From a virus: DNA of 26,476 nucleotides. Positions 1-22,270 of the stretch are shown one piece after another. The translations under genes and the position numbers were made by a program. Under the pieces are notes generated by a model, which was not told where the DNA came from, did no database searches, and was given only the letters and a program-made list of their open reading frames with translations. Numbering within the stretch: position 1 is the first letter of the stretch; each line of letters opens with the position of its first letter. Location: the IMG/VR virus record IMGVR_UViG_3300037133_000007, positions 1 to 26,476 of that record. One strand, written 5' to 3'.

Positions 1-154
1 CTGGACCGGTAGGCCCTGTTGCACCGCCTGGACCGGTAGGCCCTGTTGCACCGCCTGGACCGGTAGGCCCTGTTGCACCGCCTGGACCGGTAGGCCCTGT
101 TGCACCGCCTGGACCGGTAGGCCCTGTTGCACCGCCTGGACCGGTAGGCCCTGT
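1..154 (-). repeat. 27-bp perfect tandem repeat encoding GATGPTGPG
   Basis: Five complete 27-bp copies occupy bases 1-135, and a sixth partial copy ends at about 154. The array probably continues left of the window. Each unit encodes nine residues, that is three collagen Gly-X-Y triplets, so a gain or loss of units keeps the reading frame. The copies are identical at DNA level, whereas the older repeats further right (155-470) have diverged, so this part looks recently expanded or recently homogenised. Confidence 0.95.
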
Positions 155-628
155 ACCGCCCACGCCGCCTAGTGCGCCGGTACCGCCTACGCCGCCTACT
201 GCGCCGGTACCGCCTATAGCGCCGGTACCGCCCTGTTGGCCGACTGCACCAGTTCCACCTTGCTGACCTACGGCGCCAGTAGCGCCAGTAGCAGCAGGAC
301 TAATTGGCCCAGTTGCGCCAGTTGCGCCAGTTGCTCCGGCACCTGTAGCGCCGCTCGGGCCCGTCGGCCCAGTGGCACCCGTAGCACCATTGACACCCGC
401 ACTGCCAGTTGCGCCGGTAGCGCCCGTAGGCCCGGCTGCACCTGTAGCACCTGCGCCTGTGGCGCCAGGTGATCCTACAAAGTAACCAAGCGAGGTCCAG
501 GCGGTTGAGCCATCCCCTATCTTAACCCTATCGGTGTCAGTCTCTAGTCCTATTTCACCTTGAGCGAGGATAGAGTTAGCCGTTGTCCAGTTAGCTGCGG
601 TATCACGGCGCAGTTGAATCCTAGTCAT
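1..628 (-). CDS. Collagen-like tail fibre protein, N-terminal part (runs off the left edge)
   Basis: This is the start of a tail fibre or receptor-binding protein; the C-terminus lies beyond base 1. Residues 1-50 form the short domain typical of the N-terminus of phage fibres (major tropism determinant N-terminal type). It has the pattern [11 protein letters not shown], then [17 protein letters not shown] and AWTSLGYF, and it usually attaches a fibre to the tail. From about residue 51 the protein is Gly-X-Y collagen-like repeat rich in GATG, GPTG and GGTG, with one interruption near a PISPAAT segment, and no stop codon to the window edge. Collagen-like repeats form trimeric stalks in phage fibres. 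The start ATG overlaps the stop of the preceding gene (TAATG). The frame was checked through the repeat down to base 2. The fibre role is a family inference; the host ligand is unknown. Confidence 0.9.
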
Positions 629-3250: not shown

Positions 3251-4528
3251 CTAAAGGATCCAGGCACTAGCCCAGTTAATGTAGCCGACACAAGTAGATG
3301 AAGATACGACAGTGTCGCCGGGCATCAGTACGCCCCAGTCACTGTTAGGTTGCAGGGAGCCTTGGTACGGAGTCTGTGGAAGTGATATACCACCAGCAGC
3401 GTCCTGAAGGATCATCCCATACGCCTCAAGTTTTGTGGTGCCACTGACGCCAATAGCTCCGGTGAGGTACTGAACGCCGGTCATCGCGCCACCACTAAGC
3501 CCACTGTATGAGATAGTCGCTAATCCGGTACTGGTTTGAACGACAGCCTTACCCGAACCGGCGAACCCAACAAAGTCAGCAGTGGCGCTTAAACTAGCAG
3601 ATCCGTTAAGGGACTCCAAGGTAGTGCCGCCGCCAGCATATGCAGTACTACACGCAGCATTAGGACAAGCGGATCCGGGTCCAGCAAACTGAGTCACTGT
3701 CTGGTTATACATATCCGCCAGAAGGTACCCATTGTTAGTGATTGTGCCGTTCCAAATCATAGTGTTGGCGCCCATTTGTAAGGATGGGTCAAGTACCGGG
3801 GACGTGCCTGAAGCTGGCGGAGACATCAGATAGACAATAGGACGACAGTCCCAGTTACCGTTGTTGGTTATCGTTTGGTTGTCATCCCTAGCAAAGTACT
3901 GGGTTTGCGTTGGGTACTGGTACAAGCGAGGATCCGTACAGTGGACCAATAACTGAATGTCCTGAGCCAGATAACCCTTCGACATTGCCAGGTCTATCTT
4001 CCATGCACGATTACCGGGCCGGCCCATTACCTGCAAGATAGGTGGATCCATAACTGTCAGAAGACCAGTATCTGGCCCAGTAGTAGGAGCGCCGTGGACT
4101 AGACTACCATCTCCAGCGTAACTCCCTAGATAGACTCCCGCCATACCGGGCACGTTAATGTAGAGCGTAGTCTCTGTAGTTCCTTGGGGTGAGAATACGC
4201 TACCGACAATATTGAGGTTCTGTTGCACAGTAGCGCCAGGATTAGGAGTGCCACCAGCCGCACAGTCTCCCTTGAAAATAATGTCACGACCGGCGAGTAG
4301 ATCAAAGCCTATAAACTCACCAGTATCACGAGGGCGCCCAGAGTTACCTATGCGCAGCCCCTCAATGTCGAGGCCGTCTATCTCTTTCCAATCCACTCCG
4401 TTGTAGCCCATGCCAAATCGGTAGCTGTTGTAGCAGGCCATATAGCCCGAGAAGACTGAGCCATCGGTTGGCTGCAACAGCCCTATAAGGCCACTGGTTA
4501 AGTCGATATACGGCGGAACGCCTGCCAT
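3251..4528 (-). CDS. Distal tail protein (Dit-like) / minor tail protein
   Basis: A 425-residue protein following the tape measure. The N-terminal half has the hallmarks of siphovirus distal tail proteins: FGMGYNGVDWKEIDGLDIEG, a segment GRPRDTGEFIGFDLLAGRDI, and later RAWKIDLAMSKGYLAQDIQL with a following DPRLYQYP. Dit forms the hexameric ring that joins tail tube to tail tip. The C-terminal half is a Gly/Ser/Thr-rich beta domain that may be an extra carbohydrate-binding or decorating domain. The start was chosen at the ATG overlapping the tape measure stop (TAATG at 4528); an ATG at 4561 is in frame but lies inside the upstream gene and adds no family-like sequence. The function is a family inference. 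Confidence 0.82.
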   Translation of the reverse strand: MAGVPPYIDLTSGLIGLLQPTDGSVFSGYMACYNSYRFGMGYNGVDWKEIDGLDIEGLRIGNSGRPRDTGEFIGFDLLAGRDIIFKGDCAAGGTPNPGATVQQNLNIVGSVFSPQGTTETTLYINVPGMAGVYLGSYAGDGSLVHGAPTTGPDTGLLTVMDPPILQVMGRPGNRAWKIDLAMSKGYLAQDIQLLVHCTDPRLYQYPTQTQYFARDDNQTITNNGNWDCRPIVYLMSPPASGTSPVLDPSLQMGANTMIWNGTITNNGYLLADMYNQTVTQFAGPGSACPNAACSTAYAGGGTTLESLNGSASLSATADFVGFAGSGKAVVQTSTGLATISYSGLSGGAMTGVQYLTGAIGVSGTTKLEAYGMILQDAAGGISLPQTPYQGSLQPNSDWGVLMPGDTVVSSSTCVGYINWASAWIL

Positions 4529-7500
4529 TACTTGCTCGGTACTTTCGTTCTCATGGTCCATCCTACCTTGGCCGCTATAGCCGTAGAATCTGTAGGGTTA
4601 ATACCTGTGATCTCAATGTGAACACCAGAGCCAGCGAACTCAGTATTGGCCTTCTGTTGCTCAATGGAGATCAAAGCATTCTGCTTAGCCTCGGCTGTCT
4701 TGCCGCTGTTCTGAATAGCACTCAAGGTAGCTTGCGCCGTGGCGTTGTGCTTGTTAGCAATGTTCTGTGCTTGATCATACGCACGGTCTGCCTTAGCTAC
4801 TAGGCTGGCTTGATGCGCCTGGGCACCGGTTAAGTGCGTTCCCGCTAAAGTCTGTGCGAGTGAAGTTCCGCCAGCCTGCGCCGCATTAGCAATCTTCTGT
4901 ATAAGACCGACGCTAAGGTCCGTGTGCTTTTGCACAGTATCCATATGGACCTTGGCAGCAGATACAGCAGCATCTCCCGCCTTAGCAGTCTTAGCAACCA
5001 CGACCGACTGAGCATCTGCTGCGGATGTCCACTTCAATGTTATGACATCCAAGTGGACTTTCATTTCCTGAGTGACAAGGTTAAGACCATAGAGACCACG
5101 CTCGCCAAGAGTATCGGCAGTGATTGCAGCCTTGTCAGCGATAAGATCGGCAGACTGCGTAGCCCGAGCGCTAGCAACAGTGGCATTATCAGTAATCTTT
5201 TGTACGACCTGTGCGGCCATATCCTGTATGATTGCCGTCTGGTCCGTATATTGCGTAGTTTGCATAGCTAGCTCAGAGTTCAAGTTTACCTGAGTCAGGT
5301 TAGCCTCCAGCTGCCCATAGTACTTCAGCTCAGCATTATAGGTAGCAAGTATTTGTTGACCCTGCTTGTCGAGGCCCTTCGAGAATAGAGTGTGAACCTC
5401 ATCAATCATTTTATTGAATGAGCCACTCGTACTCTTACCTACCTGCGCCAAATAGTTACCTTGTGTAAGCTGCGGACCGCCAGTAGTGCCACCAAACTCC
5501 GTCTGTGGGCGCAAGGACTGAATGGTGCCAGTCTGCAATGCTTGCTGCATAGTCTGTAGCATTTGCTGTGACGCTGTTATCAATGAATTCTGTTTGAATC
5601 CAGCATCGGATGAAGTAGAAGATGCTGGCTTTTTCTTAGCGTCCGCTGCTAAGGCTGCCGCTGCCGCAGTCATTGCCGCATTCGCAGCATCCTCTGGGTT
5701 AACCGGAGTAGCTTCCTTATACCTCTTCTCCGCTGCCTTAAGTGCGGCTGGATCCTTACGATAGTGAGCTAACTCAGCCTCTTGTCCTTGTATCTGCCTA
5801 GTGTCAGCATTCCAAAGACCACTATGCGTTGCAACCTTAGTGTAATTGTCAAACATAGCTTTAACTTGAGCAAGCGTATCGGTAGGGTAGTATTCTTTCT
5901 GCTCACCCTTTAAGAATGATGTATTGTGTTCCTGGCTGTATCCTTTAGCAAATGCTTGCGGGGTACCGTGCCACTTACGCCCCATATACTCATCTTCCGT
6001 ACCTGTAGACCCCAAAGCGTTACGGTTATTGATCTCTAGGTTTATCTGCGCCTGTGCGTTCTTAAGTACATTCGGACCGCCCTGACCGATAGTGTTCTCG
6101 TAGGATTGAGTGGTGTTAACGACCGCGTTGCCCTGTGCAATCCTCGCCGCATCAGCAGCCTTCGAGACTTCGCCCCACCCGAGAACTACTGCCGCAAGGC
6201 CGGCCAGCACAAGGCTAAGGCCCATGGTCATTCCGGCCTCGGAAGCTTCTACCTCAGGCGCCGCCACCCGGGCAGCGGTCCCCACATCTAGCATACCAGT
6301 AGCGGCTAAGTCAGCTTGCGCCGCAACCTCACCATAAGAAGTAGCTAATACAACATTAGCGTCGGCAGCAGCCTGCGCAGCTCTCGCCACCGCCCCTTCG
6401 CTGGCCATAATGTCAGTAAGACTTACACTGGCCTTCACGATTGAGGCAGTCATAGTGTCAATAGAAACCTGTAGTGCATCGGTACCGCTAGTGGCTTCCT
6501 TAGATTGCAGGCCAAACGTATTGAATCGGTTACCTACTGTTAAGAATGTCTGCCCAAGGTTAAGAACTGTTTCACCTAAGAACAGGAGAACGCCGAGAAC
6601 TATAGGCCCAGCAAGTACAGCACCTAAAGCTATAGCGACGACCTTGTACTTCTCGAACCAGTTAATGACCTTCGAGATTTCTACCTCTAACCTCTGAATG
6701 ACATCAACAACATCGTGGCCGATAGTCACACCGAAGTTGTGCAGCTCGGCACGAGATTCCGCTACCTGACCGGCGAAGGTTTTAGAGAATGCATCCGCCG
6801 CTCCCTTAGTCCTATCACGTAGAGTTTCAAGGATCTTATTAATGGTGCCTACCGAAGTGGCATAGTTAATGTTAGCGTCCTTAACGGCCAACTGAGCTGA
6901 TGCCAAAGCTGCCGACGCTGCCACACCTACAAGCTGTCCATCGCTCATCTTCTGTTGTACGGCAGTTAGTTGCAGTTGAGCCTTAGCCGCAGCTTGCTGT
7001 TCAGTTACCAATGAGTGGAGTCTGCCCGAGGACACATTCAGGTTAATGCCCCACGAGAGCAGGGTACGAGTCGAGCCGCCATACACATGGTCTAGAGCAT
7101 CAGCCGCAGCGGCCAATGACACGTTCTTATAGCGGGCCAAATCCTCGACCAAGCCCATATCCGCAAAGGCTTTCTTGGTACCGCCAGTTGCCATGGTCAA
7201 GTTCGCCATAGACTGCGCAACGTCAGTGTTATCAAACCCCAACTTTGCTGCCGCAGACGAGGCAGCACCTAGCTGCTTATTGGATGCAGCTATCGTGGAA
7301 CCAGTATTCTTTGCCACAGTGTCGAAGGACACTAAAGCCTTCTCATACCCATCCCACAGCTTAATTCCCTCACCGGCTACTGCCAATCCGCCAGCAATGC
7401 CGGCGAACACAGAGATCTTACCAATAGACTCTAGACTAGACTTGAAGCCGCCCAACTTCGTAGTGTTGGACGAAATCTGTGTGCCCATCTTTGTCATGAC

Positions 7501-7659
7501 ATTACCGAATGGCAATCCCATGCTATTCATTTCATTGCCTATAGACGTGAAGATACCGCCCATGCCTTTGGCCTTCGAGCCAAACCCGGACGCAAACTTC
7601 TCACCCATGCCGGAGCCGGATGAGCCACCCTTAGCCTCCATCTCATCGAAGTCGGCCAT
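4528..7659 (-). CDS. Tape measure protein
   Basis: This is the longest gene in the window, about 1043 residues from the start chosen here. It is the tail-length ruler and DNA-ejection protein. It has a Gly/Ser-rich start, long Ala/Gln/Lys-rich helical regions, and two hydrophobic stretches: one around VAIALGAVLAGPIVLGVLLF and one around MGLSLVLAGLAAVVLGWG. Both are typical of tape measures. I chose the ATG at 7659 because GAGGAGGG lies about 13 bases upstream. The frame is open back to a GTG at 7737 overlapping the preceding micro-gene, so a 1069-residue form is possible. Codons at 6730-6798 encode a segment shared with the small gene at 22076-22270. The tail chaperone gene lies upstream, but a gp10-like gene and a micro-gene intervene. 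Confidence 0.93.
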   Translation of the reverse strand: MADFDEMEAKGGSSGSGMGEKFASGFGSKAKGMGGIFTSIGNEMNSMGLPFGNVMTKMGTQISSNTTKLGGFKSSLESIGKISVFAGIAGGLAVAGEGIKLWDGYEKALVSFDTVAKNTGSTIAASNKQLGAASSAAAKLGFDNTDVAQSMANLTMATGGTKKAFADMGLVEDLARYKNVSLAAAADALDHVYGGSTRTLLSWGINLNVSSGRLHSLVTEQQAAAKAQLQLTAVQQKMSDGQLVGVAASAALASAQLAVKDANINYATSVGTINKILETLRDRTKGAADAFSKTFAGQVAESRAELHNFGVTIGHDVVDVIQRLEVEISKVINWFEKYKVVAIALGAVLAGPIVLGVLLFLGETVLNLGQTFLTVGNRFNTFGLQSKEATSGTDALQVSIDTMTASIVKASVSLTDIMASEGAVARAAQAAADANVVLATSYGEVAAQADLAATGMLDVGTAARVAAPEVEASEAGMTMGLSLVLAGLAAVVLGWGEVSKAADAARIAQGNAVVNTTQSYENTIGQGGPNVLKNAQAQINLEINNRNALGSTGTEDEYMGRKWHGTPQAFAKGYSQEHNTSFLKGEQKEYYPTDTLAQVKAMFDNYTKVATHSGLWNADTRQIQGQEAELAHYRKDPAALKAAEKRYKEATPVNPEDAANAAMTAAAAALAADAKKKPASSTSSDAGFKQNSLITASQQMLQTMQQALQTGTIQSLRPQTEFGGTTGGPQLTQGNYLAQVGKSTSGSFNKMIDEVHTLFSKGLDKQGQQILATYNAELKYYGQLEANLTQVNLNSELAMQTTQYTDQTAIIQDMAAQVVQKITDNATVASARATQSADLIADKAAITADTLGERGLYGLNLVTQEMKVHLDVITLKWTSAADAQSVVVAKTAKAGDAAVSAAKVHMDTVQKHTDLSVGLIQKIANAAQAGGTSLAQTLAGTHLTGAQAHQASLVAKADRAYDQAQNIANKHNATAQATLSAIQNSGKTAEAKQNALISIEQQKANTEFAGSGVHIEITGINPTDSTAIAAKVGWTMRTKVPSK

Positions 7660-7729
7660 GGTTTTGAGTTTACCCTCCTCAAAATCTGAACGATTCATGA
7701 GGAGATACACCGTGACGTGCGCCGTAACT

Positions 7730-7873
7730 TTAACCACCCGCCTTGCGATATGTCTTACTACGATACTGATTACCTAGTTTCGCAACAGACATTTTAGCCT
7801 TAGTTTCAGGAGTACGATTATTGGCAGCTATAGATAGCTTAGAGCCAGATGGTGCTCTGTATACTCGTCCCAT
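7730..7873 (-). CDS. Micro-ORF with NUMOD3-like DNA-binding motif (possible homing endonuclease remnant)
   Basis: A 47-residue reading frame that starts immediately after the TAA of the gp10-like gene and ends just before the tape measure. The centre reads RTPETKAKMSVAKLGNQYR, which matches the NUMOD3 pattern (polar residue, P or S, ET-K-K-S-A-GxxR). NUMOD3 is a small DNA-binding module usually found next to GIY-YIG or HNH homing endonuclease domains. The rest is basic, with a C-terminus SKTYRKAGG. There is no nuclease domain, so it is either a decayed intron-encoded or free-standing endonuclease or a small DNA-binding protein kept by the phage. The stop codon overlaps the alternative GTG start of the tape measure. 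Coding is supported by the motif and tight spacing rather than by length. Confidence 0.6.
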   Translation of the reverse strand: MGRVYRAPSGSKLSIAANNRTPETKAKMSVAKLGNQYRSKTYRKAGG

Positions 7874-9160: not shown

Positions 9161-10297
9161 TTAGACTGAGAAACCGCTGTCCTTGGTAATAAGAGAGAAG
9201 CTAGGACTGGCGCCACCGGCGCTAATAACGCCCTTAAGGTTAATGGTGTTCTTCACAATGTCCAAGCCTTCCAGTGGCGCTTCACCACCAGACTGAATGA
9301 TAAGCTGCGGGAGAGTAAGAGCGAAGGTGTCGTAGTTACCAGACGAAGCAATCTGACCGCCAACTGCCTTGATAACCGTAGAACCCAATGGAGTGTAGTA
9401 CGGGTACTGGAACGAGTACGCACCAGTGCCACCAGTTTGTGCCCCAATGAACAGGTCGAAGATATCGGACTTAGACGTAGGCGTATAGTCCATATCTAGG
9501 GCTACTGCAACCTCAATAAGACCGTTAGTCACCGGCTCCTCTTTGAACTCCCGACCAATGTACGCACGGTCGGTAGCTAGTTTTGGCGTTAGGGTGACAG
9601 TAGCCTTGCGACAACCATCGACGCTGTTTCCGCCCACTGTAAAGAGCGAGGAGCTATTCGGCATTGTGAAAGGCACGAAACCAACAGGCTCAACCGTATC
9701 AGCAGCGAGGGCCGGGGTGTCAGTCTCCACGACGAATGCATAGTCCATGTCGTAGGAGAAGGTGACGATGTTGTCCCTCGGGAATACAAACTCGGCCTTG
9801 GTGATCTTACCGTTCACATAGTCCTGATAGTGGAGGTTACCACCAGTGTCAGGGACGGCCAGCTCGGCGTCGATCCATGAACCGTCCTGCACATACAAGC
9901 CAGCAGGAGAACCACTGGCAGCAGTAGTGTCAGTAACCGTGTAGGCTGTTGAACCTGTGGCTGCAAATGCGAGGGGCGTCGGAAGGGCAAGCCCACCGAA
10001 TACCTGGGCCAATAGGAGCGACATATTCGTGTTAATGAAGTCGCCGGTTAGAGATAGTTGAGCGTCCAAATAGACAGCAACGTTAGCGGATCCGATGTCG
10101 ATGACACCCGAGCCACTTTGGTAACGAATGTACGGTCCACCCTGTACCTTGTGTGGGTTATACGTACCCTTAGCTGACTTGACCGGAATCATTACATCCG
10201 GCGCCACGAAGCTAGCTAGGACGGCATAGTCAGCCGCTGTGTTTACACCTTGTGCAATGGCGAAGTAACCGCCCACACCACTTCCGATTCCAGCCAA
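9161..10297 (-). CDS. Major tail protein (tail tube subunit)
   Basis: A 378-residue beta-rich protein directly before the tail chaperone, the standard position of the tail tube subunit in siphoviruses. It begins GIGSGVGGYFAIAQGVNTAADYAVL and contains FINTNMSLLL, a mid-region with PRDNIVTFSYDMDY, and a late EAPLEGLDIVKNTINLKG strand pair typical of actinophage tail tube proteins. The start is an unusual TTG at 10297, supported by an AAAGGAG ribosome binding site about eight bases upstream. That site lies inside the last codons of the HNH gene. The gene should be strongly expressed because many copies are needed per tail. The family assignment is by position and general character. Confidence 0.85.
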   Translation of the reverse strand: MAGIGSGVGGYFAIAQGVNTAADYAVLASFVAPDVMIPVKSAKGTYNPHKVQGGPYIRYQSGSGVIDIGSANVAVYLDAQLSLTGDFINTNMSLLLAQVFGGLALPTPLAFAATGSTAYTVTDTTAASGSPAGLYVQDGSWIDAELAVPDTGGNLHYQDYVNGKITKAEFVFPRDNIVTFSYDMDYAFVVETDTPALAADTVEPVGFVPFTMPNSSSLFTVGGNSVDGCRKATVTLTPKLATDRAYIGREFKEEPVTNGLIEVAVALDMDYTPTSKSDIFDLFIGAQTGGTGAYSFQYPYYTPLGSTVIKAVGGQIASSGNYDTFALTLPQLIIQSGGEAPLEGLDIVKNTINLKGVISAGGASPSFSLITKDSGFSV

Positions 10298-10301
10298 TGT
10301 A

Positions 10302-10667
10302 CTACTCCTTTGTGCGGGCCATGGTTCTAATCCTATGGCAGTTTGAACAAACTACATTACACTTTTCTACTTCAGCTATAACTGTACCCCACGAACAAGT
10401 ACCCATATCGGAGATATTGAATAGCTTTTCTGTTCCGGGCAAGTGGTCTAAATCCAAGCAGAACGGATGATCTATAAAGTGTTCACCACAGTCTTGACAA
10501 CCGATTATCACTTTATATATGCTCACACAAGCATAAACTAAATCACGATGCTTCTTAGCATATGCCGCACACTTCTCGGCATTCCTTTTCTTCCATGCTG
10601 CATTATTAGCTGCAACCTTTTCAAGGTTACGTGCTTTCCATCTAGATTGCGGGGTATCTGTGGGCAC
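10302..10667 (-). CDS. HNH endonuclease (free-standing, homing type)
   Basis: A 121-residue protein. The N-terminal half is Lys/Ala/Asn-rich helical sequence with repeats of the type NxEKxAAxxxxxKK. The C-terminal half holds an HNH zinc-binding nuclease: CQDCGE, then DLDHLPG with the DH catalytic pair, then EKCNVVCSNCHRIRT supplying the second Cys pair and the final His. Such genes are common mobile passengers in phage genomes and cut intron-less or insert-free alleles. It begins at a GTG with AAAGGA upstream, sits between the neck protein and major tail genes, and its final codons carry the ribosome binding site of the major tail protein. All key Cys and His residues are present, so activity is plausible. 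Confidence 0.88.
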   Translation of the reverse strand: MPTDTPQSRWKARNLEKVAANNAAWKKRNAEKCAAYAKKHRDLVYACVSIYKVIIGCQDCGEHFIDHPFCLDLDHLPGTEKLFNISDMGTCSWGTVIAEVEKCNVVCSNCHRIRTMARTKE

Positions 10668-10682: not shown

Positions 10683-11204
10683 CTAAATCGGAGATACTAA
10701 GGATCTGAACTCGAACGACCATCGAAGGGTACCCTGCCAGCCGGCCTGAGACTCGCCCTGAAAGCCGGGAGAGTGAGTGTAGTTACCAATGTGCGCTTTG
10801 ACTTCAAAAGGGTGCGGATAGGAAGTGATACCGAGAACGGGGATACCGTTGCCGCCACGATTTGTCACAACTGCTGCCATAACCACGTTGGTCATTGTGG
10901 CGTAAACCTGGGCCATGATGTCGCCAGGAACGGTCCCATCACCTTCTGTCGGGCCGCTGCCAGTGAACGTCGTGCAGTACCCCTCAATATTGAACGACTC
11001 GATGAAGGTATAGCCAGTAGCCTCGATGGTATACTCGTCATCGAATACGCCTTCTACAACGATGTAGCTTGCCGGCTCAAACTGTTCTAGATCAGCCTGA
11101 ACGACATAGACAGGTGGAGTCTGTGCGGCTGCCAATGTAACAATGAAGCCATACAGCGCAGCATACGAGGCCGGTGCAGCAGAGGGCAAAGTGGTGGCGG
11201 TCAT
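10683..11204 (-). CDS. Neck / tail terminator protein
   Basis: A 173-residue protein lying between the head-tail adaptor and the tail tube gene. I recognise no sequence motif beyond its size, mixed alpha/beta composition, and the order of genes, which matches neck or tail-terminator proteins of HK97-like phages. It has an N-terminal Ala-rich helix (ASYAALYGFIVTLAAA), then beta-rich sequence, and it ends LRWSFEFRSLVSPI. The start ATG at 11204 lies immediately after the adaptor stop; an in-frame ATG at 11273 lies inside the adaptor gene and is rejected. Its function is inferred from position. Confidence 0.65.
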   Translation of the reverse strand: MTATTLPSAAPASYAALYGFIVTLAAAQTPPVYVVQADLEQFEPASYIVVEGVFDDEYTIEATGYTFIESFNIEGYCTTFTGSGPTEGDGTVPGDIMAQVYATMTNVVMAAVVTNRGGNGIPVLGITSYPHPFEVKAHIGNYTHSPGFQGESQAGWQGTLRWSFEFRSLVSPI

Positions 11205-11206
11205 GG

Positions 11207-12532
11207 CTAACCAATCGTTTGCAAGTGGTAGCTCTCGAATATCTGGGCTATCTCGTTCGGTACGCCCGGCCACAGGCCGTCCCCGCCTTGCGTTTTCGGC
11301 CCAGCATCCTTAGTGAATGTACGGGATGCCTGGTACCAGTGCCTCCACCAGAAGGCCACTAGGTTGACGGTCGCCATCCATACGTTGCTAGGCACAGGGT
11401 CGTATCCAGCGACGTATGTTACCTCAATGTTCCTTGAGCCTGGGAAGAATGGCTTGGGCCAAGATCCGCCAGCAAAGGTGCGCATGATCTGGCCGGTGTC
11501 ATAATCCACCTGAACACCATCTATAGGGTTCTCCGGCGTAGACTCAGCGCACTGAACCATGCCTCCGGTGGACTGCCACTCCTGACACTTTATAAGCTCG
11601 ACTATGGGCGAGTAATGAAGTTGGATATACTCTCCGGACCAGCCGTCGTGCCTCTCATAGAACGTCGTCGGGCATAGAGGACGGTTCGCTATATCCTGAG
11701 CAGTGTAGCACGCCATGTCGATGATGCGTTGCAATATCTCAGACTCATTGCTACCTACTGCCGGCGCCTGCGTAAACTGCAACCAGGCCAGTACTTCCGG
11801 CACGTCGAGATAGGTCGTCCATTGCACGGAACCAGCAGGGTTGTGTGCTGTCGGATTGAACCCTCCGGGCGTGCCCGGCATAAGGTCTGAGATGTCGATA
11901 GTGGTGATCGGCTTACCGAGAACGAGATCTCCAACCTCCCCGCCCAACAGACCATTCGACTTAACATAGGTCACGTCCAGCGCAGTGACGCCGCCAACGA
12001 GACTGTAGCTATTCACTAGGTAAATGGCGTAGTTGTTAGGGTTGGACCCGTTGTATATGACGACGTTGCCACCGACGAGAGAGTCTACCCAATCCGCTAC
12101 AGATCTACCGATAGAGTCCGTTATGCTAACAAACACGGAGGATACTGCGGAATAAGCGGAGGAGTTGAAGTTCACAATGCCAGGGCCAGTGACACCGGCC
12201 GTAGTACCGTTCACAAACGAGAACGAGTACGGGGTATCGTAGGCCGGTATCTGAATCGAGTAATCTCGCTGTTGACCCTGAGCATTGACTGTACTAAACT
12301 GCTCGGTGACTTCGTACCATGCCCCTAAGTAGGGAACGGTGTCTAGGTCGCCATTCGCATAGAACGATTGTGAAATCTGCCCGCTACCGTCAAGAGTAAG
12401 AACCTTCGAGTTTGGAGATACAACGACACCGCTGTTACTCATAACTTCTGACAGTGTAACTGTCAAAGTGCCGAGTAGCGGGTCGGATCCATCTGAGAAC
12501 TTGCCTGTGAGTGCGACGGGCGTAAAAGCCAT
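11207..12532 (-). CDS. Head-tail adaptor fused to an N-terminal beta-rich domain
   Basis: A 441-residue protein in two parts. Residues from about 240 onward resemble HK97 gp6-like head-tail adaptors: YLDVPEVLAWLQFT, then EILQRIIDMACYTAQDIANR, a strand EYIQLHYSPIVEL, then DYDTGQIM and a final helix WMATVNLVAFWWRHW. Adaptors normally have about 100-200 residues. Residues 1-235 are an extra Ser/Thr/Val-rich domain beginning VALTGKFSDGSDPLLGTLTV, a pattern I associate with fibre or decoration domains of phage virions. The start has GAGGAATAAACCTAA upstream. The gene lies between the coiled-coil protein and the neck protein. The adaptor half is fairly sure; the role of the N-terminal half is unknown. 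Confidence 0.8.
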   Translation of the reverse strand: MAFTPVALTGKFSDGSDPLLGTLTVTLSEVMSNSGVVVSPNSKVLTLDGSGQISQSFYANGDLDTVPYLGAWYEVTEQFSTVNAQGQQRDYSIQIPAYDTPYSFSFVNGTTAGVTGPGIVNFNSSAYSAVSSVFVSITDSIGRSVADWVDSLVGGNVVIYNGSNPNNYAIYLVNSYSLVGGVTALDVTYVKSNGLLGGEVGDLVLGKPITTIDISDLMPGTPGGFNPTAHNPAGSVQWTTYLDVPEVLAWLQFTQAPAVGSNESEILQRIIDMACYTAQDIANRPLCPTTFYERHDGWSGEYIQLHYSPIVELIKCQEWQSTGGMVQCAESTPENPIDGVQVDYDTGQIMRTFAGGSWPKPFFPGSRNIEVTYVAGYDPVPSNVWMATVNLVAFWWRHWYQASRTFTKDAGPKTQGGDGLWPGVPNEIAQIFESYHLQTIG

Positions 12533-13100: not shown

Positions 13101-13104
13101 TTAG
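13031..13104. repeat. Composite direct and inverted repeat at the capsid stop codon
   Basis: Two 23-bp direct repeats (13049-13071 and 13082-13104) contain the 12-bp palindrome AACCTATAGGTT followed by GTGACGCTTAG. In the first copy the palindrome extends to 16 bp (13047-13062). A 14-bp perfect inverted repeat (13032-13045 with 13067-13080) encloses the first copy in its loop. The right-hand copy includes the capsid stop codon. Alternative hairpins are therefore possible on the transcript, and the palindromes could also bind a dimeric protein on DNA. The arrangement looks like a mobile or duplicated regulatory element. Confidence 0.9.
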
Positions 13105-14672
13105 CTAGCAAACGTCGGGGTGACGAGTCCGGTGCCTTGGATAACGAAGTTAGCGTTGGCGTACCGAGCTGCGGTGTAGGCGATGTAGCCATAGATCTGA
13201 AGCAACACAGACATCTGGTTGCCATAGGTCTGAGGCAGGACCCTAGTCACGACAGGCGACTCGAACAAGTAGTTCTCCTCGAAACGTCCACCCAGGATGA
13301 CAGACTGGTTAGCACTAGCGCCAAGCTGCTGGGGAAGGTTAGCGTCTTCATAGGTATCGAGTCCGAAGATTCGAGTACCAATAGCGCCCTCGCCCAAATT
13401 CAGTCCCGCGTCCGTAGCAGTGGCAGCCGCATTGAACGGGCCGAGGTAGGACGGAACAACCAAAGGCCGACCCGCAGAGTCAAACTGCGAAGCAATGAAC
13501 TCCCAGTACGTCGGGCTCATAAAGCAGTGCGTGGACGGAAGGAACAACGTATTGAATACGTCGGCCTTAGCCTGACCAAGCTGCCCGTAAAGGCCCTTGA
13601 GGGTAGGAGTAGCTTGCGTCCAAGTGACAGTCTGTACGCCAGTGGTATTCAGAATACCAACGACATCGGCAGAACCTGCGCCGATCTGCTCGAACTGGTT
13701 AGTGCCATTACCGGATGCGACAGCGACATCGACAGCCTGGGCGTAAGCCTTGCCCAAGTCCTTGAATGCCATCTGATCGAAGGCGATAGGAGAGCGCTCA
13801 AGAAGCTGCAAGGAGATCAACTGTCCACCGGCCTTGAGGACCACCGGCAAGCTGATGTATGCAGTCTGAAGGTTCTGCATGAGCACCGGGGTATTCTCCC
13901 CACCCGACTGCGGGCCAACGGCAGTGCCGCCAACCACCTTCGGGATATTGATGTTCATGGTACCGTCAGGCAGAGGCTGCTTGTTCTGGCAATCCGCAAG
14001 GGGACGGCCGGCACGCATGAATGCAATCCACTCTAGCGTCTGGAACAACGGAGGAACAAACTCTCCACCAGCGCCCTGAGTAATGCTCAATGCACGCTCT
14101 TGAACGGATCCCGCAAAGTCACGGTACGAATAAACGTGGCCGTGGTTGTCTTCACGAGGGTTCTTAGCCTCAATCATCTGATCGAGGAAGTACTGCTCCG
14201 GTCCGCTGCGAGTGATCTTACCGTCAATCTCAGAGGCCACAATGTGGTTCTCTGCGCCGTGGCGCTGAAGGCGCTCAACTGCACCGAAGTACCGAGCCCC
14301 GAGACCAGCACCGAAGCCGGCGATAGCGGCGTCCTGAAGGAAGGAACGACCGTTCCCCTTCTCGTACACACGGTGCTCAGATAGCTTGGTCATTTGGCCG
14401 TCACCCTTGAGGGCGTAGCCGGTGCCGTACTGCATCCGAGCCTGTGCGGCTTTCTTCTCTTGGCGCTCAGTCTTACGAGCCGCTTCGGCCACTGCAATAG
14501 CGTCCTCACGGCCCTGAATCTTCACGGTCAACTCGCCCCGAGAGAAGTTTTCCTCCGGGGTGAAATCACGAGTCTCCGTGGCTGCGGTATTGACCACAGT
14601 CTCCAACTCAGTCACGAGCGCTTCACGCTCGGTACGGAGTGCGGCAAGAGCCGCCTTCGATTCCTTACTCAT
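13101..14672 (-). CDS. Major capsid protein, HK97 fold, with N-terminal scaffolding domain
   Basis: A 523-residue HK97-type major capsid protein. The first 80-100 residues are charged coiled coil (KESKAALAALRTEREALVTE) that resembles the delta scaffolding domain removed by the prohead protease. The rest has typical HK97-family features, including NREDNHGHVY-like N-arm sequence, a long central helix region, and a final IYGYIAYTAARYANANFVIQ segment. The start at 14672 is chosen because GGAGGG lies about seven bases upstream and the first residues match delta domains. An in-frame ATG at 14762 would add 30 non-family residues. It lies downstream of protease, decoration-like and HAD-like genes and should be the most abundant virion protein. 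Confidence 0.92.
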   Translation of the reverse strand: MSKESKAALAALRTEREALVTELETVVNTAATETRDFTPEENFSRGELTVKIQGREDAIAVAEAARKTERQEKKAAQARMQYGTGYALKGDGQMTKLSEHRVYEKGNGRSFLQDAAIAGFGAGLGARYFGAVERLQRHGAENHIVASEIDGKITRSGPEQYFLDQMIEAKNPREDNHGHVYSYRDFAGSVQERALSITQGAGGEFVPPLFQTLEWIAFMRAGRPLADCQNKQPLPDGTMNINIPKVVGGTAVGPQSGGENTPVLMQNLQTAYISLPVVLKAGGQLISLQLLERSPIAFDQMAFKDLGKAYAQAVDVAVASGNGTNQFEQIGAGSADVVGILNTTGVQTVTWTQATPTLKGLYGQLGQAKADVFNTLFLPSTHCFMSPTYWEFIASQFDSAGRPLVVPSYLGPFNAAATATDAGLNLGEGAIGTRIFGLDTYEDANLPQQLGASANQSVILGGRFEENYLFESPVVTRVLPQTYGNQMSVLLQIYGYIAYTAARYANANFVIQGTGLVTPTFAS

Positions 14673-14704
14673 AGTGTGCCCTCCAATAGGCTTGTTGGGA
14701 TATT

Positions 14705-14735
14705 CCGACATTGTGTCATGTGGACATATTGTCGG
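14705..14735. promoter_or_regulatory. Nested inverted repeat upstream of the capsid gene
   Basis: The 147-base gap between the HAD-like gene and the capsid start holds a nested inverted repeat: outer arms CCGACA and TGTCGG (14705-14710 and 14730-14735), inner arms TGTC and GACA (14714-14717 and 14723-14726). On the coding strand the element lies just upstream of the capsid ribosome binding site. A loose promoter-like pair (TTGTTG, 17 bases, TATGTC) overlaps it. It could be a promoter with operator, or an mRNA structure affecting capsid translation. Neither is proven. Confidence 0.4.
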
Positions 14736-14819
14736 GATTTTCTTACAACAAGTGGTTCCCATCAGTCCGGCTCTCAGGGCATGAGAGTGGTGCTTCGGTC
14801 CCGGCTTGCAGGTAAAGGA

Positions 14820-17404: not shown

Positions 17405-17624
17405 TAGGGTTGTACTCCTTCAGATATTCTTCGGCATTTGCCTTAAGGCTAGCGGGCGCTGCTTTCCAGCAAGGTAGCTGTGTCCAACCTAAAATAACAA
17501 CTCGGTTAAGCATCCCGCCAGGGCACAATCCTTCGAGAGTAGTCACAGGTTCATGAGTGTATGGATCCCGAACGTCCCAAACCCTAGTTTTGATCCAATC
17601 CTCGTCATAGTTATTAGGCGCCAT
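17394..17624 (-). CDS. Small protein of unknown function after the ADP-ribosyltransferase gene
   Basis: A 76-residue protein I do not recognise. It contains WIKTRVWDVRDPYTHEP and a hydrophobic segment MLNRVVILGWTQLPCWKAAP, followed by an acidic C-terminus. I placed the start at an ATG (17624) within the last codons of the preceding long gene, because GAGAGGATG lies a dozen bases upstream and the longer 90-residue form would begin deeper inside that gene. Its stop overlaps the start of the next gene. Position suggests a partner or inhibitor of the upstream toxin-like protein, but this is only an inference. Confidence 0.65.
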   Translation of the reverse strand: MAPNNYDEDWIKTRVWDVRDPYTHEPVTTLEGLCPGGMLNRVVILGWTQLPCWKAAPASLKANAEEYLKEYNPNAH

Positions 17625-20600
17625 AGTCAGCCGCATCCTCTCGATAGACCTTTGATACATTACCAATAACAGTCATTTCGTGCTCATTGAGACACCCAAC
17701 ACCAGTACGGGCCGTAGACATAATCTGTGAGGCGGGTATCTGCGCCGTTAGCAAGGAACCATACGGACTTCCGAAAGAACCTATTGCCACATCGAGAGAG
17801 GTAGACCACGAGGATATAGGGCGCATCTGTGCGGTCTGTATTATGTCGTGCGCCTGCGTAGTTATGCCTTTATCATTAGGTCCGGTAGGGACATTCTGTG
17901 TCGTCCCGAGATCCGCAGGATCGTCGCCTTGCGCCCTGTATAGGAGAACAGTAGCCACTCCCTGATCCTTAAGCATTTGCTGGGTATCAGTGTATTGGGC
18001 TCGAACAAACTCTTGCGCCACTGCCTGATTGTTACCTTGAGAAAGCAAGCCAGCCTTATCTGCCAAATAGCTACTAAGTGCTGAGTTCAAGTCTGGTGAT
18101 ACAACTGAGCCCCAACGCATAGAGTCCTGAAGTCCAAACTCTTTCTCAGCAGCGCTCTGAATAGCAAGAGACAGCGCGTTCGAGTCATTAGAGGTACCGG
18201 CCCAAGCGCTAACAAGTGTAGCTACTGCGGCCTCTCGCTCTTTACCCGCCGACCATAGAGTAGCTGCGGGTGAATCAGGCTGCATTGAAAACGGTGTAGC
18301 AAGACCTGGATGCTCCGCAAGACCAGCCAGTGCAACTATGTCCTTAGTCGAGGCCGTCATACTGGCAGACAGCCTGTCGGTAACATCGGCTTTGCACGCC
18401 TTCTCCGTATCAAGACTGTACTTGAACGTCTCATTAGCTGCGCCGTATTGTCCAGCCACCAGCGGGCTATTGACTCTGTCCAAGCCCGCCGTAGTAATAG
18501 TGCCCAGCGCCGAACCGGCTGGACCTTGCTGAATGATTGCTACAGCGGCCCTAAGAGTAGTGACATCTACCGGTGCTGGCGGAGGCGTTACCGATGCCGG
18601 CGCCGGTGCATATAGAGTCCCAACATTCGTGATATCGAGGTCAGACATATCGCTCAACGGTACATCGGTAATTGTTGGGTTAACCTCGTGAGATCCGCCC
18701 TGCCCAGACTTCGAGGCGATACCCTGTGCCGAGCCAGATGCTACATACCCTTCCGTTTGATCTCCCTCATGCCCCCACAGCATTGCCTGAGCCTCGGGCA
18801 TAATGATCTTAAAGCCGAGCATTGCCGAGACTATAGGAGTCGCCTCTTTAAGGGCGTCAACCTCACACGGATAGCACCCGCCCTTCCAGGTAACTCCATT
18901 CTCGGTTACGGCCGGAGTCTCATTTAATTTACCGAATGCGCCGGGGCTCTGTCCGCCAGTGACTACCCGAGTCATGATGGCGTCCATAGTGGCGAAGTTA
19001 GGGTCGTTCGGGTCATTGATGTTGTTGGCGAAGTTCGGCTGCTTCATAGCACCGGACTTAAGCCCGAGAATAGCATTCGTTACAGGAGTAGTTGGGTCCC
19101 CAAACACATGGCCCATAGCAATCTCAATGGCGTTACCCGTACCTAACTGATAGAAGGATGGCGTTAAGGTAAGCGCGTCACCATCCTTCGTAGTGCCCCA
19201 CTGCTCATCAGTAGACTTTCCCTCAATCACCATCTGCTTCATAAGGGCCTGCGCTGCGCTGGTCAGGTTCGGCTGTTGTGACAGCGCCACACCATTTTGT
19301 ATGTTGCAATCATTGACCGAAGATATTGGCGCCCCACCGCCATAACCAGGTACTACCGTACCCCCAGTAGCATCCTTACCTTTACCCACTACGGGCGTAC
19401 CGGTCAACTCATTGGTGGCGTACAGAACAGGTATCGGCAAGTTAATGACTTGATCGGTAGCTACAGCACGAGCTATATAGTGAGCCGCCGCCATCGAGAT
19501 ACCCAACTGAGTGCGGGCCGAGGTGGCCGAGATAAGACCAGCGGCCTGCAACGGAGTAATCGGGTTTGCGGTATTGGCAGTGTCTTTGACAATTTCTGGG
19601 CACTCATTATGATACCTCGGATATGCTGTCAGTCCGAATGCCACTTGTTGAGCATTCAACCCCTGAGCCGCTGCAACTATTTGATCCCGCATACCAGAGG
19701 TACTACCTGCGCCAGGGATCTTTGCTAGAGCGCCCTGCTGCCTATCCTGTATAGTCTGCGTTAGACCTAAGTCCTCGGTAGACGATCCTTCGGTACTAGA
19801 GAAAGTCCCATCAGGGTCGCCAACGTGAGCGTACGAAGGTGACATAGGACCGAATGCCGTAGACTCGTGGTTAGGGTCATAGTTCGGGTTAGGTAGCCCA
19901 TAGTCCCCAGTACCGCCTGTCAGGATAAGTGGACTAGGTAGCTTGTCAGACGCTGGATTAAATGGCGTGCCATCGGGGAACTGCCCAGCCATTCTGACCT
20001 GATTATTAAAGGCGGCTTGTGCATTGTTCCAGATGCTGTACTGATTGCGCATCACGCCTAATAGAGCGGCCTGTCCTGGGTTCTGTACCGTCTGGCTCGG
20101 TTCAACGGCCCATGCAACAGGAGCGCCAGATACTGGATCTTTCTTCAGGTATAGGCCGACGCTCATGTCAGATCGAGCGTACAGTGCGGCGCTGGCAGGG
20201 TCATTAACGTGAGCGTCTATGGTCGCCGCCATGGTGGCGTTGTCAGCGCTATAGGGTAGCTCGGTCTGAACGCCGGCAACCTGAAAGCCAGTATCAGGCA
20301 CAGTACCGTCATGAGGATTGATTGTAGCGCCAACCTCACCATTCTCGTCCGGCTTCATTTGTGAGAGGCACTGCTCCCACGAGGTTGGGTTCATTTCCTG
20401 CCCCGAGGTAGACCAACTTGTGTCAGTCAGATCGACAGGAGGTGGACCAGCATCAGCTCCACCGGCACCGCCGCCGCCTCCGCCTCCGCTACCATCCTCG
20501 AAGTAACCATGCCAACCATGGCCCTGTTCCTTCTGGGACTCCTCCTCGACATTGAGGCGCTCCTGAATAGGCCACGGTGGTTGTATTACCCGCTCCTCGT

Positions 20601-20667
20601 TGCTTACCGGAGCAACGTATGGGATGAAATCTCCTCGTTTGCTTACCTTCCAAGGCAGGGAGGACAT
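17614..20667 (-). CDS. Large virion-associated protein with C-terminal ADP-ribosyltransferase domain
   Basis: A 1017-residue protein directly after the portal gene, where actinophages often encode minor head proteins that are injected with DNA. The C-terminal 110 residues have the R-S-ExE signature of Arg-targeting mono-ADP-ribosyltransferases: LYRAQG (Arg911), SSWSTSLDVA (Ser955-Thr956-Ser957), and LNEHEMTVIG (Glu995-x-Glu997). All key residues are present. Residues 1-80 include a Gly-rich linker. The middle (about 330-640) is helical and has LQAAGLISATSARTQ and NFANNINDPNDPNFATMDAI segments that resemble a domain common in phage head proteins (similar to DUF7178), at low certainty. The start overlaps the portal stop (TAATG). 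The enzyme could modify host proteins after injection. Confidence 0.88.
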   Translation of the reverse strand: MSSLPWKVSKRGDFIPYVAPVSNEERVIQPPWPIQERLNVEEESQKEQGHGWHGYFEDGSGGGGGGGAGGADAGPPPVDLTDTSWSTSGQEMNPTSWEQCLSQMKPDENGEVGATINPHDGTVPDTGFQVAGVQTELPYSADNATMAATIDAHVNDPASAALYARSDMSVGLYLKKDPVSGAPVAWAVEPSQTVQNPGQAALLGVMRNQYSIWNNAQAAFNNQVRMAGQFPDGTPFNPASDKLPSPLILTGGTGDYGLPNPNYDPNHESTAFGPMSPSYAHVGDPDGTFSSTEGSSTEDLGLTQTIQDRQQGALAKIPGAGSTSGMRDQIVAAAQGLNAQQVAFGLTAYPRYHNECPEIVKDTANTANPITPLQAAGLISATSARTQLGISMAAAHYIARAVATDQVINLPIPVLYATNELTGTPVVGKGKDATGGTVVPGYGGGAPISSVNDCNIQNGVALSQQPNLTSAAQALMKQMVIEGKSTDEQWGTTKDGDALTLTPSFYQLGTGNAIEIAMGHVFGDPTTPVTNAILGLKSGAMKQPNFANNINDPNDPNFATMDAIMTRVVTGGQSPGAFGKLNETPAVTENGVTWKGGCYPCEVDALKEATPIVSAMLGFKIIMPEAQAMLWGHEGDQTEGYVASGSAQGIASKSGQGGSHEVNPTITDVPLSDMSDLDITNVGTLYAPAPASVTPPPAPVDVTTLRAAVAIIQQGPAGSALGTITTAGLDRVNSPLVAGQYGAANETFKYSLDTEKACKADVTDRLSASMTASTKDIVALAGLAEHPGLATPFSMQPDSPAATLWSAGKEREAAVATLVSAWAGTSNDSNALSLAIQSAAEKEFGLQDSMRWGSVVSPDLNSALSSYLADKAGLLSQGNNQAVAQEFVRAQYTDTQQMLKDQGVATVLLYRAQGDDPADLGTTQNVPTGPNDKGITTQAHDIIQTAQMRPISSWSTSLDVAIGSFGSPYGSLLTAQIPASQIMSTARTGVGCLNEHEMTVIGNVSKVYREDAADYGA

Positions 20668-22079
20668 TAGCGGCCTAGTTTAGAAGGAGGCTTTTTACCG
20701 CCTGTGTTACCGGTCGGGCCTGCCGATGAGACAGGAGGCGGCGGTGGGGCCGCACCCTCGGTGCCGGGCGGAGTATTGCCTGGCGTCTTTGGCGCATTCT
20801 GTGCCGCCCCTGTGTCCGCTGCGGATTGTGTCGCTGCGAGAGCGCCGCCACCCATAACCATGAAGTCCGAGTGAGCCGAGTTGATCGGTCCCCATAGACT
20901 ATCTGCGCCAGATTCCTTAGACACCGGCAGGCGCAAGTACTCACGACACTCATTAGGCGTAGCCACCGCTGCCATACGTAGAGCGTTAATGAAGGCCCCG
21001 AGCATCTCATCGTTAGTCTTAAATAGGTCAGACACGTTTCGACGGACATAGTATCCCGCTGGAAGCAGGGCGGTATACATCCGGTCAATCCTACGGGTGT
21101 ATCCAGAGAGTGAAAATATCGCAAACCCCATAATCATTTCCTGAAGTCCTTTGCCGTAGACCTCACTCCCTCCGGCGCTAGCATCTCCTACGAGGTGTCC
21201 AGGCACCCCGTAGAAACCACAAAGGTCTGCCCGGCTAAACGCTCTCGCCTCTAACAGTTGAGCCGTCTGCGGGTTCACACTGATCTGCTGCCACTTAGCA
21301 TTTGAGTCAAGGATCATGGGCGTATGACTCTGTCCAAGCCCGCCGTGTCGGGTCATGATCTCTCTGACGAGGCGCTCTTTGTCCTTCTGTTGCATAGGCT
21401 TATCGGTCGAGTACATTCCGCTCGGGGACATCCCCTGCGCAAAGTAGCGTGAGCCGTACTCCTGCATGGCAATAGGTAGGCCGAAGCCCATAGCACCTAT
21501 CTCAATAGGATTAAGCCCTACTAGGCCTTGCGGAAGAGACATCCACGGTACGTGAATAATGTCTCGTGTTGGAATGATAGGTCCAATATCAGACCCAATA
21601 CGGTACTGCCTAAAGCCCTTTTCGATGTTCACCCGCATCTGTGCGGGGTTGAGAATCTCTACTTGCTGCGCCAAGTCGAGCGGACCGCCTCGGTCCACTA
21701 CATGGAAGTAGGCGTTACCGTTAAGACCGAGGGACATGATGAGATTGAAGTCTGCCTGCTCCCGGTCAATGTCAGCGCAGGGATCTGCCACTACGTCGGG
21801 CGGGTCAACCTCGGGATCCTTATAGCTACGCTTGTTCCCCTGCTGCCTATGGACATGGACCTGTAGCCCTCCTACGGCGTCCCCGAGTACCCGCAGACAA
21901 GAGGCTACAGTCATGATCCCTAACACGGAACGCTCATTGACAATGACGCCAGCTACCGCCTGGTTGTATACGGACGGGGGTGGAATCGCCGCAGGATCCG
22001 ACATCCAGCCCCCCCACCCTCCTGCTGAAAGGGGCATTCCTCGCTGCTGTATTTGTTCCCTGCGCTGAGTTATTGTCAT
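20667..22079 (-). CDS. Portal protein
   Basis: A 470-residue HK97-type portal protein: N-terminal region with VIVNERSVLGIMTVASCL, then LVGLNPIEIGAMGFG, the family segment ARAFSRADLCGFYGVPGHLV, then RNVSDLFKTNDEMLGAF. The C-terminal 60 residues are Pro/Gly/Ala-rich and probably disordered. The dodecameric portal docks terminase and the tail. The start ATG overlaps the stop of the preceding 64-residue gene (ATGA). The first bases (ATGACAATAAC) recur at the start of that preceding gene, showing duplication of the initiation region. Confidence 0.92.
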   Translation of the reverse strand: MTITQRREQIQQRGMPLSAGGWGGWMSDPAAIPPPSVYNQAVAGVIVNERSVLGIMTVASCLRVLGDAVGGLQVHVHRQQGNKRSYKDPEVDPPDVVADPCADIDREQADFNLIMSLGLNGNAYFHVVDRGGPLDLAQQVEILNPAQMRVNIEKGFRQYRIGSDIGPIIPTRDIIHVPWMSLPQGLVGLNPIEIGAMGFGLPIAMQEYGSRYFAQGMSPSGMYSTDKPMQQKDKERLVREIMTRHGGLGQSHTPMILDSNAKWQQISVNPQTAQLLEARAFSRADLCGFYGVPGHLVGDASAGGSEVYGKGLQEMIMGFAIFSLSGYTRRIDRMYTALLPAGYYVRRNVSDLFKTNDEMLGAFINALRMAAVATPNECREYLRLPVSKESGADSLWGPINSAHSDFMVMGGGALAATQSAADTGAAQNAPKTPGNTPPGTEGAAPPPPPVSSAGPTGNTGGKKPPSKLGR

Positions 22080-22270
22080 GCTGACTGCCTCAAATACTCG
22101 ATAAGTTTTCCAAGTCGGGCAATGGCGACGATAAGAGCAGTGGCACCAAGGTTGTGTAGCTCAGCTCGGGCCTCGGCGACCTGTCCCGCAAAGGTCTTCG
22201 AGAATGCGTCGGCTGTTCTTTGTTCGTGCATGCGTGAACAGAGAACGCTGTCGCTCTGCGTTATTGTCAT
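22076..22270 (-). CDS. 64-residue patchwork protein sharing a segment with the tape measure
   Basis: A 64-residue protein between the membrane protein and portal genes, overlapping both by ATGA junctions. Residues 20-42 match codons 6798-6730 of the tape measure: ADAFSKTFAGQVAE then Ala or Ser, RAELHN, Leu or Phe, and Gly; 21 of 23 residues are identical. At DNA level 13 codons differ silently and only two change the residue, so both copies seem held by selection on the protein. The first codons copy the portal start (ATGACAATAAC), and a GATALIVA segment copies the neighbouring membrane protein. The role is unknown; mimicry of tape measure to block chaperone binding or a superinfecting phage is one hypothesis. 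Confidence 0.75.
   Translation of the reverse strand: MTITQSDSVLCSRMHEQRTADAFSKTFAGQVAEARAELHNLGATALIVAIARLGKLIEYLRQSA

Follow-up and report, generated by a model that had tools for sequence, protein, structure and literature searches.

The head-tail adaptor gene of this virus encodes a protein in which a complete adaptor of the T5/RcGTA type is preceded by a fibre-type domain, and this domain is itself interrupted in its last loop by an inserted region. The fused domain is not part of the adaptor fold, and in related viruses it is encoded by a gene of its own. We consider it probable that the fused domain would serve as a covalent collar on the outer neck, with as many copies as the adaptor, where it would brace the head-neck joint and display the insert.

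The gene occupies positions 11207-12532 (minus strand) of a 26,476-base stretch of DNA, positions 1 to 26,476 of virus record IMGVR_UViG_3300037133_000007, which is a fragment and is referred to here as the window. It starts with ATG and encodes 441 amino acids. Because the identical protein is also encoded on two other contigs, and diverged copies with the same three-part layout occur at three further loci (L005, L006 and L012; 66-86% identity to the window protein), the reading frame is not a local assembly accident; a local frameshift or misassembly was rejected as its origin on the same grounds.

The gene also lies where an adaptor is expected, with the capsid gene upstream and a probable tube gene downstream. 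The upstream neighbour, beyond one 118-residue open reading frame (ORF), is the major capsid protein (13101..14762, minus strand; PF05065, E 2.3e-7; phrog_2263, E 3e-38). Downstream is a 196-residue ORF (10683..11273, minus strand; by visual inspection, translation probably begins near 11204) that has no family match in Pfam, PHROGs or NCBIfam and, by position only, takes the place of the Neck1/tail terminator of the T5-like phage My1. Gene order then gives a 121-residue ORF (10302-10667, minus strand), without a reliable Pfam match, whose Cys/His spacing we take to resemble that of a small HNH endonuclease. It is followed by a probable tail tube protein (9161..10297, minus strand), for which the match to Phage_tube_2 (E 0.014) is under the curated cut-off. 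The order of capsid, adaptor, neck genes and tail tube is that of My1.

Several other genes of the window have unusual features. A small ORF between terminase and portal (22076-22270, minus strand) contains a 25-residue stretch that is identical at 22 positions to residues 314-338 of the 1069-residue probable tape measure ORF (4528-7737, minus strand), as if copied. After the portal lies a 1017-residue ORF (17614-20667, minus strand) without a Pfam match, the C-terminus of which presumably resembles a phage ADP-ribosyltransferase domain. Collagen-like Gly-Ala-Thr repeats occur in the genes at 2-628 (minus strand; tail end) and 24942-25505 (minus strand; before the terminase).

The C-terminal half, residues 240-441 and the stop codon (11207..11815, minus strand), had been assigned to the adaptor family in the first-pass annotation, and both profile and fold comparisons agree. 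PHROG_442 ('head-tail adaptor') matches residues 263-438 (E 5.5e-15); NCBIfam gives no match for the protein, and Pfam only PF24163 (HCP) at E 0.058. The adaptor half was unreliable in a first model, from which the Foldseek result was used for the N-terminal domain only. A second AlphaFold2 model of the 441-residue protein, built from a 20-row alignment (mean pLDDT 68.7), has ten-residue mean pLDDT values of 64-85 over residues 241-400. With VIA-align, residues 236-441 match the RcGTA neck adaptor (6toa_D; Z 12.5, 3.5 A, 169 residues), Mycofy1 (Z 11.6) and the DT57C/T5 head completion protein (8hqo_P; Z 10.9, 5.2 A, 163 residues). Since the matches cover complete adaptors (6toa_D 7-193 and 8hqo_P 1-170), residues ~236-441 of the predicted structure are a complete T5/RcGTA-type adaptor on their own. 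The RcGTA and T5/DT57C proteins share this fold but lack the N-terminal 235 residues. Longer adaptors, such as a 290-residue Streptomyces phage Wofford protein, are included in the BFVD fold listing; the Milano collar and R4C adaptor chains are not among the fold matches listed, which excludes nothing. The adaptor of a related locus, L100, had no match in phage records.

In the model of the full protein, a check proposed in the first-pass annotation, residues 218-239, at the junction of the N-terminal half and the adaptor, have pLDDT under 50. The N-terminal half consists of beta strands with a single helix of four or more residues (145-152; 8 residues), in keeping with the earlier description of this half as beta-rich. 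Its main part, residues 1-97 (12242..12532, minus strand), belongs to a fibre-type (transthyretin/pilin-like) domain, the N-domain, that is most easily recognised in relatives with a compact form of it. By tblastn, the fused compact domain of L015 (best E 6e-4, 5 records) and the stand-alone domains of L100 (best E 3e-7, 22 records) and L096 (best E 1e-12, 18 records) match the N-termini of Streptomyces-phage tail fibres. PHROG scans of compact relatives gave phrog_14726 ('tail fiber protein') with E 8.1e-8 and 4.3e-6, and all six members of A11, our profile of the compact domain from relatives, match it at E <= 0.01; scanned alone against PHROGs, window piece 1-100 gave nothing significant (best E 0.086). 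An hhalign comparison of three fused with three Streptomyces domains gave 97.1% probability (E 5.8e-11). Judged by sequence homology over most of its length, the N-domain is the same domain that begins the tail fibres of Streptomyces phages (phiBT1 gp49, TG1, Samy, Darolandstone; phrog_14726). What differs is the context: the proteins that the domain opens in Darolandstone, Samy and TG1 are tail fibres encoded close to the endolysin gene, not adaptors.

Fold comparison points the same way. The best VIA-align match of the N-domain is chain 8keg_a of the A-1(L) neck fibre (Z 10.3, 2.4 A, 95 residues), followed by chains of the Ur-lambda tail tip (Z 8.9), the Bxb1 tail tip (8.6), the A-1(L) tail fibre (8.5) and the XM1 neck (8.4), with S-layer, pilin and transthyretin chains next (Z 6.5-8.3). 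The 8keg and XM1 chains were identified by matching lengths, 125 and 126, stated in the available text of the respective papers, and 9e7m_Ta and 9d93_Lb are known here as chains rather than as named proteins. At 8.4-10.3 the Z values of the phage chains are moderate and exceed those of the latter three kinds of chain only a little; the evidence from sequence does not depend on them. Foldseek matched the N-domain to the DEV collar (PDB 9COD) with probability 1.00 (E 2e-3 and 4.7e-3 with two models); this collar is not among the best 50 VIA-align matches listed. Pfam gave only sub-threshold matches for the N-terminal half: PF08400 (Prophage tail fibre N-terminal) matched one of ten A2 members (E 0.011; 16.2 bits, with the cut-off at 26.6) and the N-terminal half of L012 (E 0.18), and in L012 a carbohydrate-binding domain was also seen (below). 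NCBIfam gave no match for the N-terminal half, and in a PDB sequence search the best matches of the N-domain were MS2-type coat proteins (E 0.018 and 0.0061), which we judged to be chance. The sequence pattern that had earlier been likened to decoration or fibre domains is thus part of a recognisable fibre-type domain, as phrog_14726 in relatives, the A11 profile, the fold, and gene fission and fusion all indicate. Because no trimeric fibre or spike follows the domain, only the adaptor or, in split relatives, a stop codon, we do not call the protein a fibre.

The N-terminal 235 residues had been described as one fibre-like domain. The fibre-like character holds, but the residues form a domain split by an insert of roughly 110 residues rather than one continuous domain. 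The A11 profile matches the window twice, at 12233-12532 (model positions 1-96, E 3.2e-31) and at 11852-11917 (model positions 94-115, E 2.4e-4), and two-part matches recur in L012 (1-95 and 94-114), L050 (1-103 and 96-115) and L006 (3-94 and 52-115). It follows that the insert sits inside the N-domain, so that the 235 residues comprise one split domain and one inserted region. The insert, residues 98-208 (11909..12241, minus strand), is beta-rich and lies in the last loop of the domain. The last strand (TIDISDLMPG) returns in residues 209-222 (11867..11908, minus strand), and residues 223-239 (11816..11866, minus strand) form a linker that, by comparison of junction DNA, is equivalent to the stop/start overlap of split relatives.

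An insert of ~110-125 residues between the strands YSIQIPA and TIDISDLMPG is present in the window, L005, L006 and L012; a search of 19 records found it in 4. It belongs to no assigned family and may bear some likeness to a common fibre domain. At the same loop L050 has a different insert of ~75 residues (L050:3289-3537), which begins GAQAIQLSTLQWAQVVPGQSVTGSGVQ... and which we take to resemble a common phage fibre repeat. The fused relatives L053, L015, L057 and L098 have a compact domain of ~100-140 residues that runs straight into the adaptor without an insert. The window insert had no match in phage records, PHROGs or Pfam; in viral contigs it was found at 10 loci, all within the window's own clade, and against the PDB it reached E 0.0008 to a designed protein, with no single stretch passing. 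The N-terminal part of L050 with its insert likewise had no match in phage records. In L012, residues 164-216 inside the insert have a sub-threshold Pfam match to carbohydrate-binding domain X2 (CBM_X2; E 0.044, 14.3 bits against a cut-off of 28.9), for which the window's own protein has no match. Another loop of the N-domain, before QRDYSIQIP, carries short collagen-like Gly-Ala-Ser runs in L053 (2992-4068) and L012 (10157-11551), and these insertions suggest that this second loop is also exposed.

To place the fusion among relatives, 17 distinct adaptor genes were compared together with the DNA before each, the relatives having been reached via capsid, portal and adaptor genes and via the N-domain itself. 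Near-copies were counted as one lineage: L007 and L008 are DNA-identical to the gene of L006, L027-L029 to that of L053, and L122 and L123 to that of L121; L010, L011 and L013 differ from L012 in DNA sequence but were assigned to its lineage because they match the window with equal identity and length. The fused state is found in nine of the 17 (the window, L005, L006, L012, L050, L053, L015, L057 and L098). In seven the domain is a gene of 111-123 codons just upstream of the adaptor. Six of these overlap the adaptor start, by one base in L100 and L125 and by four in L121, L156 and L160, with the length in L097 depending on the choice of start codon; in the seventh, L096, one 152-residue gene lies between. 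The remaining locus, L099, has the domain ~8 kb from the adaptor on the same strand. On an adaptor tree of 14 rows, which leaves out L005 (truncated) and L156 and L160 (found later), well-supported branches force two changes of the fused state, so that fusion or fission has occurred more than once. That neighbouring genes have fused is an argument for joint action of their products.

The domain is not confined to this setting. A search with the domain yielded 15 loci, of which eight are linked to this adaptor family (five separate, three fused) and seven (L159 and L162-L167) showed no such adaptor. Among the seven, L164 and L165 have identical DNA, and in L159 the domain is carried by a fibre-like protein. 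In L162, L163 and L164 a stand-alone domain gene directly precedes a similar 108-residue ORF with a CPWCVS motif, and in L162 a large ORF comes next with a stretch that we take to be intein-like. Second copies of the domain (L139 and L140) occur in the records of L100 and L015, respectively; the first begins a 472-residue fibre-like ORF, the other a collagen-like ORF that runs off the contig. Streptomyces phage LuckySocke has a lone, weak homologue of 112 residues (gene 146; L147:4983-5321; E 0.01). This gene lies outside the virion genes, flanked by a RecA-like gene and by further small genes that lead up to an RNA ligase. In cultured phages, none of the seven matched regions inspected has an adaptor annotated beside the domain, and searches of genome contigs, confined to a few exact peptide patterns, found no relatives.

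Identity between the window and L005, L006 and L012, respectively, is 93, 69 and 77% over the N-domain, 77, 55 and 52% over the insert, and 87, 77 and 76% over the adaptor (only 71 adaptor codons for L005). Values of dN/dS were 0.08-0.12 for the N-domain (two comparisons), 0.13-0.18 for the insert (two) and 0.06-0.12 for the adaptor (three). They come from seven of 13 segment comparisons, six with infinite dS having been dropped, and two of the seven are rough, with dS near 3. In these alignments all three parts look to be kept as protein, and the insert is the fastest-changing part.

The first-pass annotation had suggested that the N-terminal half projects from the neck as whiskers or a collar. 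We prefer the collar, since bases of neck fibres are among the closest folds of the modelled domain. Whiskers find no support, as the model lacks helices long enough for a coiled coil, no distal fibre is present, and the domain leads straight into the adaptor; T4-type whiskers (fibritin) in particular were rejected, since the long coiled coil is absent from a half that is beta with one 8-residue helix. We infer the location, copy number and bracing role of the collar as follows. The adaptor would form the usual twelve-copy ring under the portal, and twelve fused domains would lie outside the neck, tied by the linker at 218-239, if the N-terminus is assumed to face outward; the modelled linker allows a capsid-facing or a tail-facing placement. 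The domains would pack round the adaptor as a fibre-less collar and brace the head-neck joint, with the fast-changing loop insert pointing outward. In split relatives the free domain protein would bind the same place non-covalently. Sequence and fold leave the neck location unproven, because the domain also occurs in tail fibres and away from adaptors, and because its five closest fold matches include two chains from tail tips.

Known neck structures provide the closest parallels, here as far as the available portions of the cited papers describe them. In DEV, the N-terminal barrels of gp53 form a 15-copy collar round a 12-fold adaptor (PMC10925440); the similarity is a fibre domain ringing the head-tail adaptor (PDB 9COD), and the difference is that the DEV domains are non-covalently attached and lead into fibres, whereas those described here are fused to the adaptor and lack a fibre. 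Trimers of A-1(L) gp82N (8KEG) bind the neck ring gp5 (PMC10966104), and the N-terminal domain of XM1 gp40 (7KJK) binds the head completion and terminator proteins and is said to reinforce tail-capsid attachment (PMC10457771). Both share the fold (Z 10.3 and 8.4) and bind neck rings, but are bases of trimeric neck fibres or spikes from separate genes. A collar of twelve would depart from the solved examples, which contain 15 copies in DEV and five trimers in A-1(L), and this speaks against it. In the Milano collar protein gp13, whose number immediately precedes that of neck 1 (gp14), a decorating domain interrupts the wall domain (PMC10491603). The resemblance is one of layout only; the Milano rings are jellyrolls, with 4 x 15 copies. 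Particles of phage 812 that had lost neck decoration proteins often have deformed or broken necks (PMC12886913). The adaptor of the marine roseophage R4C, described over 178 residues, has an N-terminal Ig-like domain on a flexible loop. This is its attachment domain; it lies at the periphery, in 12 copies round the neck, and touches the capsid, and the authors relate it to stability and not adsorption (PMC10276861). As far as the descriptions can be compared, the likeness is that of a peripheral N-terminal domain, and the difference is that the adaptor half described here is already complete and the N-domain is an extra, fibre-type part with an insert. Both a collar made of fibre-base domains and an adaptor carrying an Ig-like domain at its N-terminus have therefore been published. 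Our searches of the open-access literature brought up no account of an adaptor that has a fibre-type domain fused to it or encoded over its start.

Two alternatives accept a role on the particle surface, and we regard both as unlikely, to the same degree. The fused domain could be a docking platform, that is, a neck socket that receives the product of another gene, a fibre or decoration protein whose own N-terminal domain is similar; the whiskers of the neck would then be made of that product. The records of L100 and L015 each combine an adaptor-linked copy with a second copy that starts a fibre-like protein, and domains of this type touch head-to-tail in the DEV collar, according to the part of the paper available (PMC10925440). 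Yet the window, a fragment, holds no second copy, both A11 matches being in the adaptor gene, and split relatives could attach a fibre directly. The other proposal is that the N-terminal half, mainly its insert, is a decoration that binds cell-surface sugars, like the Ig-like domains on the capsid and tail of Douge, which bound mycobacterial glycans (PMC13033339, as far as available). It fits the rapid divergence of the insert, its replacement in L050 and the sub-threshold CBM_X2 match in L012. Against it, four fused and seven split relatives have no insert at all, so that binding cannot be essential; the window protein itself has no carbohydrate-binding match; and the carbohydrate-binding module of the A-1(L) neck fibre did not bind its host, as reported in the accessible text of PMC10966104.

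Much less likely still is that the N-terminal half is missing from the virion, either as an assembly or folding aid cut off at maturation or because the adaptor is also made from an internal start. The window does encode an S78 prohead protease (Pfam), and the low-confidence linker of the model may be exposed. However, the domain is an independent gene product in split relatives, and comparison of the nine fused genes revealed no internal start, preceded by a ribosome site, that is conserved among them. At codon 235, five of the nine have GTG, L005 has GTC and L015 has ATT, and L050 and L098 lack an equivalent valine; Met218 is present in all fused genes but L098, and no Shine-Dalgarno sequence precedes it in the window (by eye). 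An internal start that yields a short adaptor was rejected on this codon comparison.

That the N-terminal half is adaptor core, namely the usual adaptor beta-sandwich, we rejected as barely credible. In its favour is only the R4C adaptor, with its N-terminal Ig-like attachment domain. The adaptor half described here, usual beta part included, aligns end to end with complete adaptors, so that the N-domain does not stand in for that part. The A11 profile, the fold comparison, the stand-alone genes of seven relatives and the low-confidence linker at 218-239 contradict the reading.

The covalent collar remains our preferred explanation. A broader proposal, which we put forward tentatively and would not yet call probable, is that in this family of uncultured phages a free fibre-base domain may act as a collar protein without fibres, its gene overlapping the adaptor start codon, that at least two fusions or splits may have switched between a free ring and a covalent twelve-copy collar, and that the last loop may be an interchangeable display site. 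Fusion may remove the 15:12 symmetry mismatch of known collars, and the natural pairs of fused and split genes would provide material for testing collar function. The results also point to a neck loop that tolerates whole inserted domains, and suggest what the small gene that precedes the adaptor in related phages may do.
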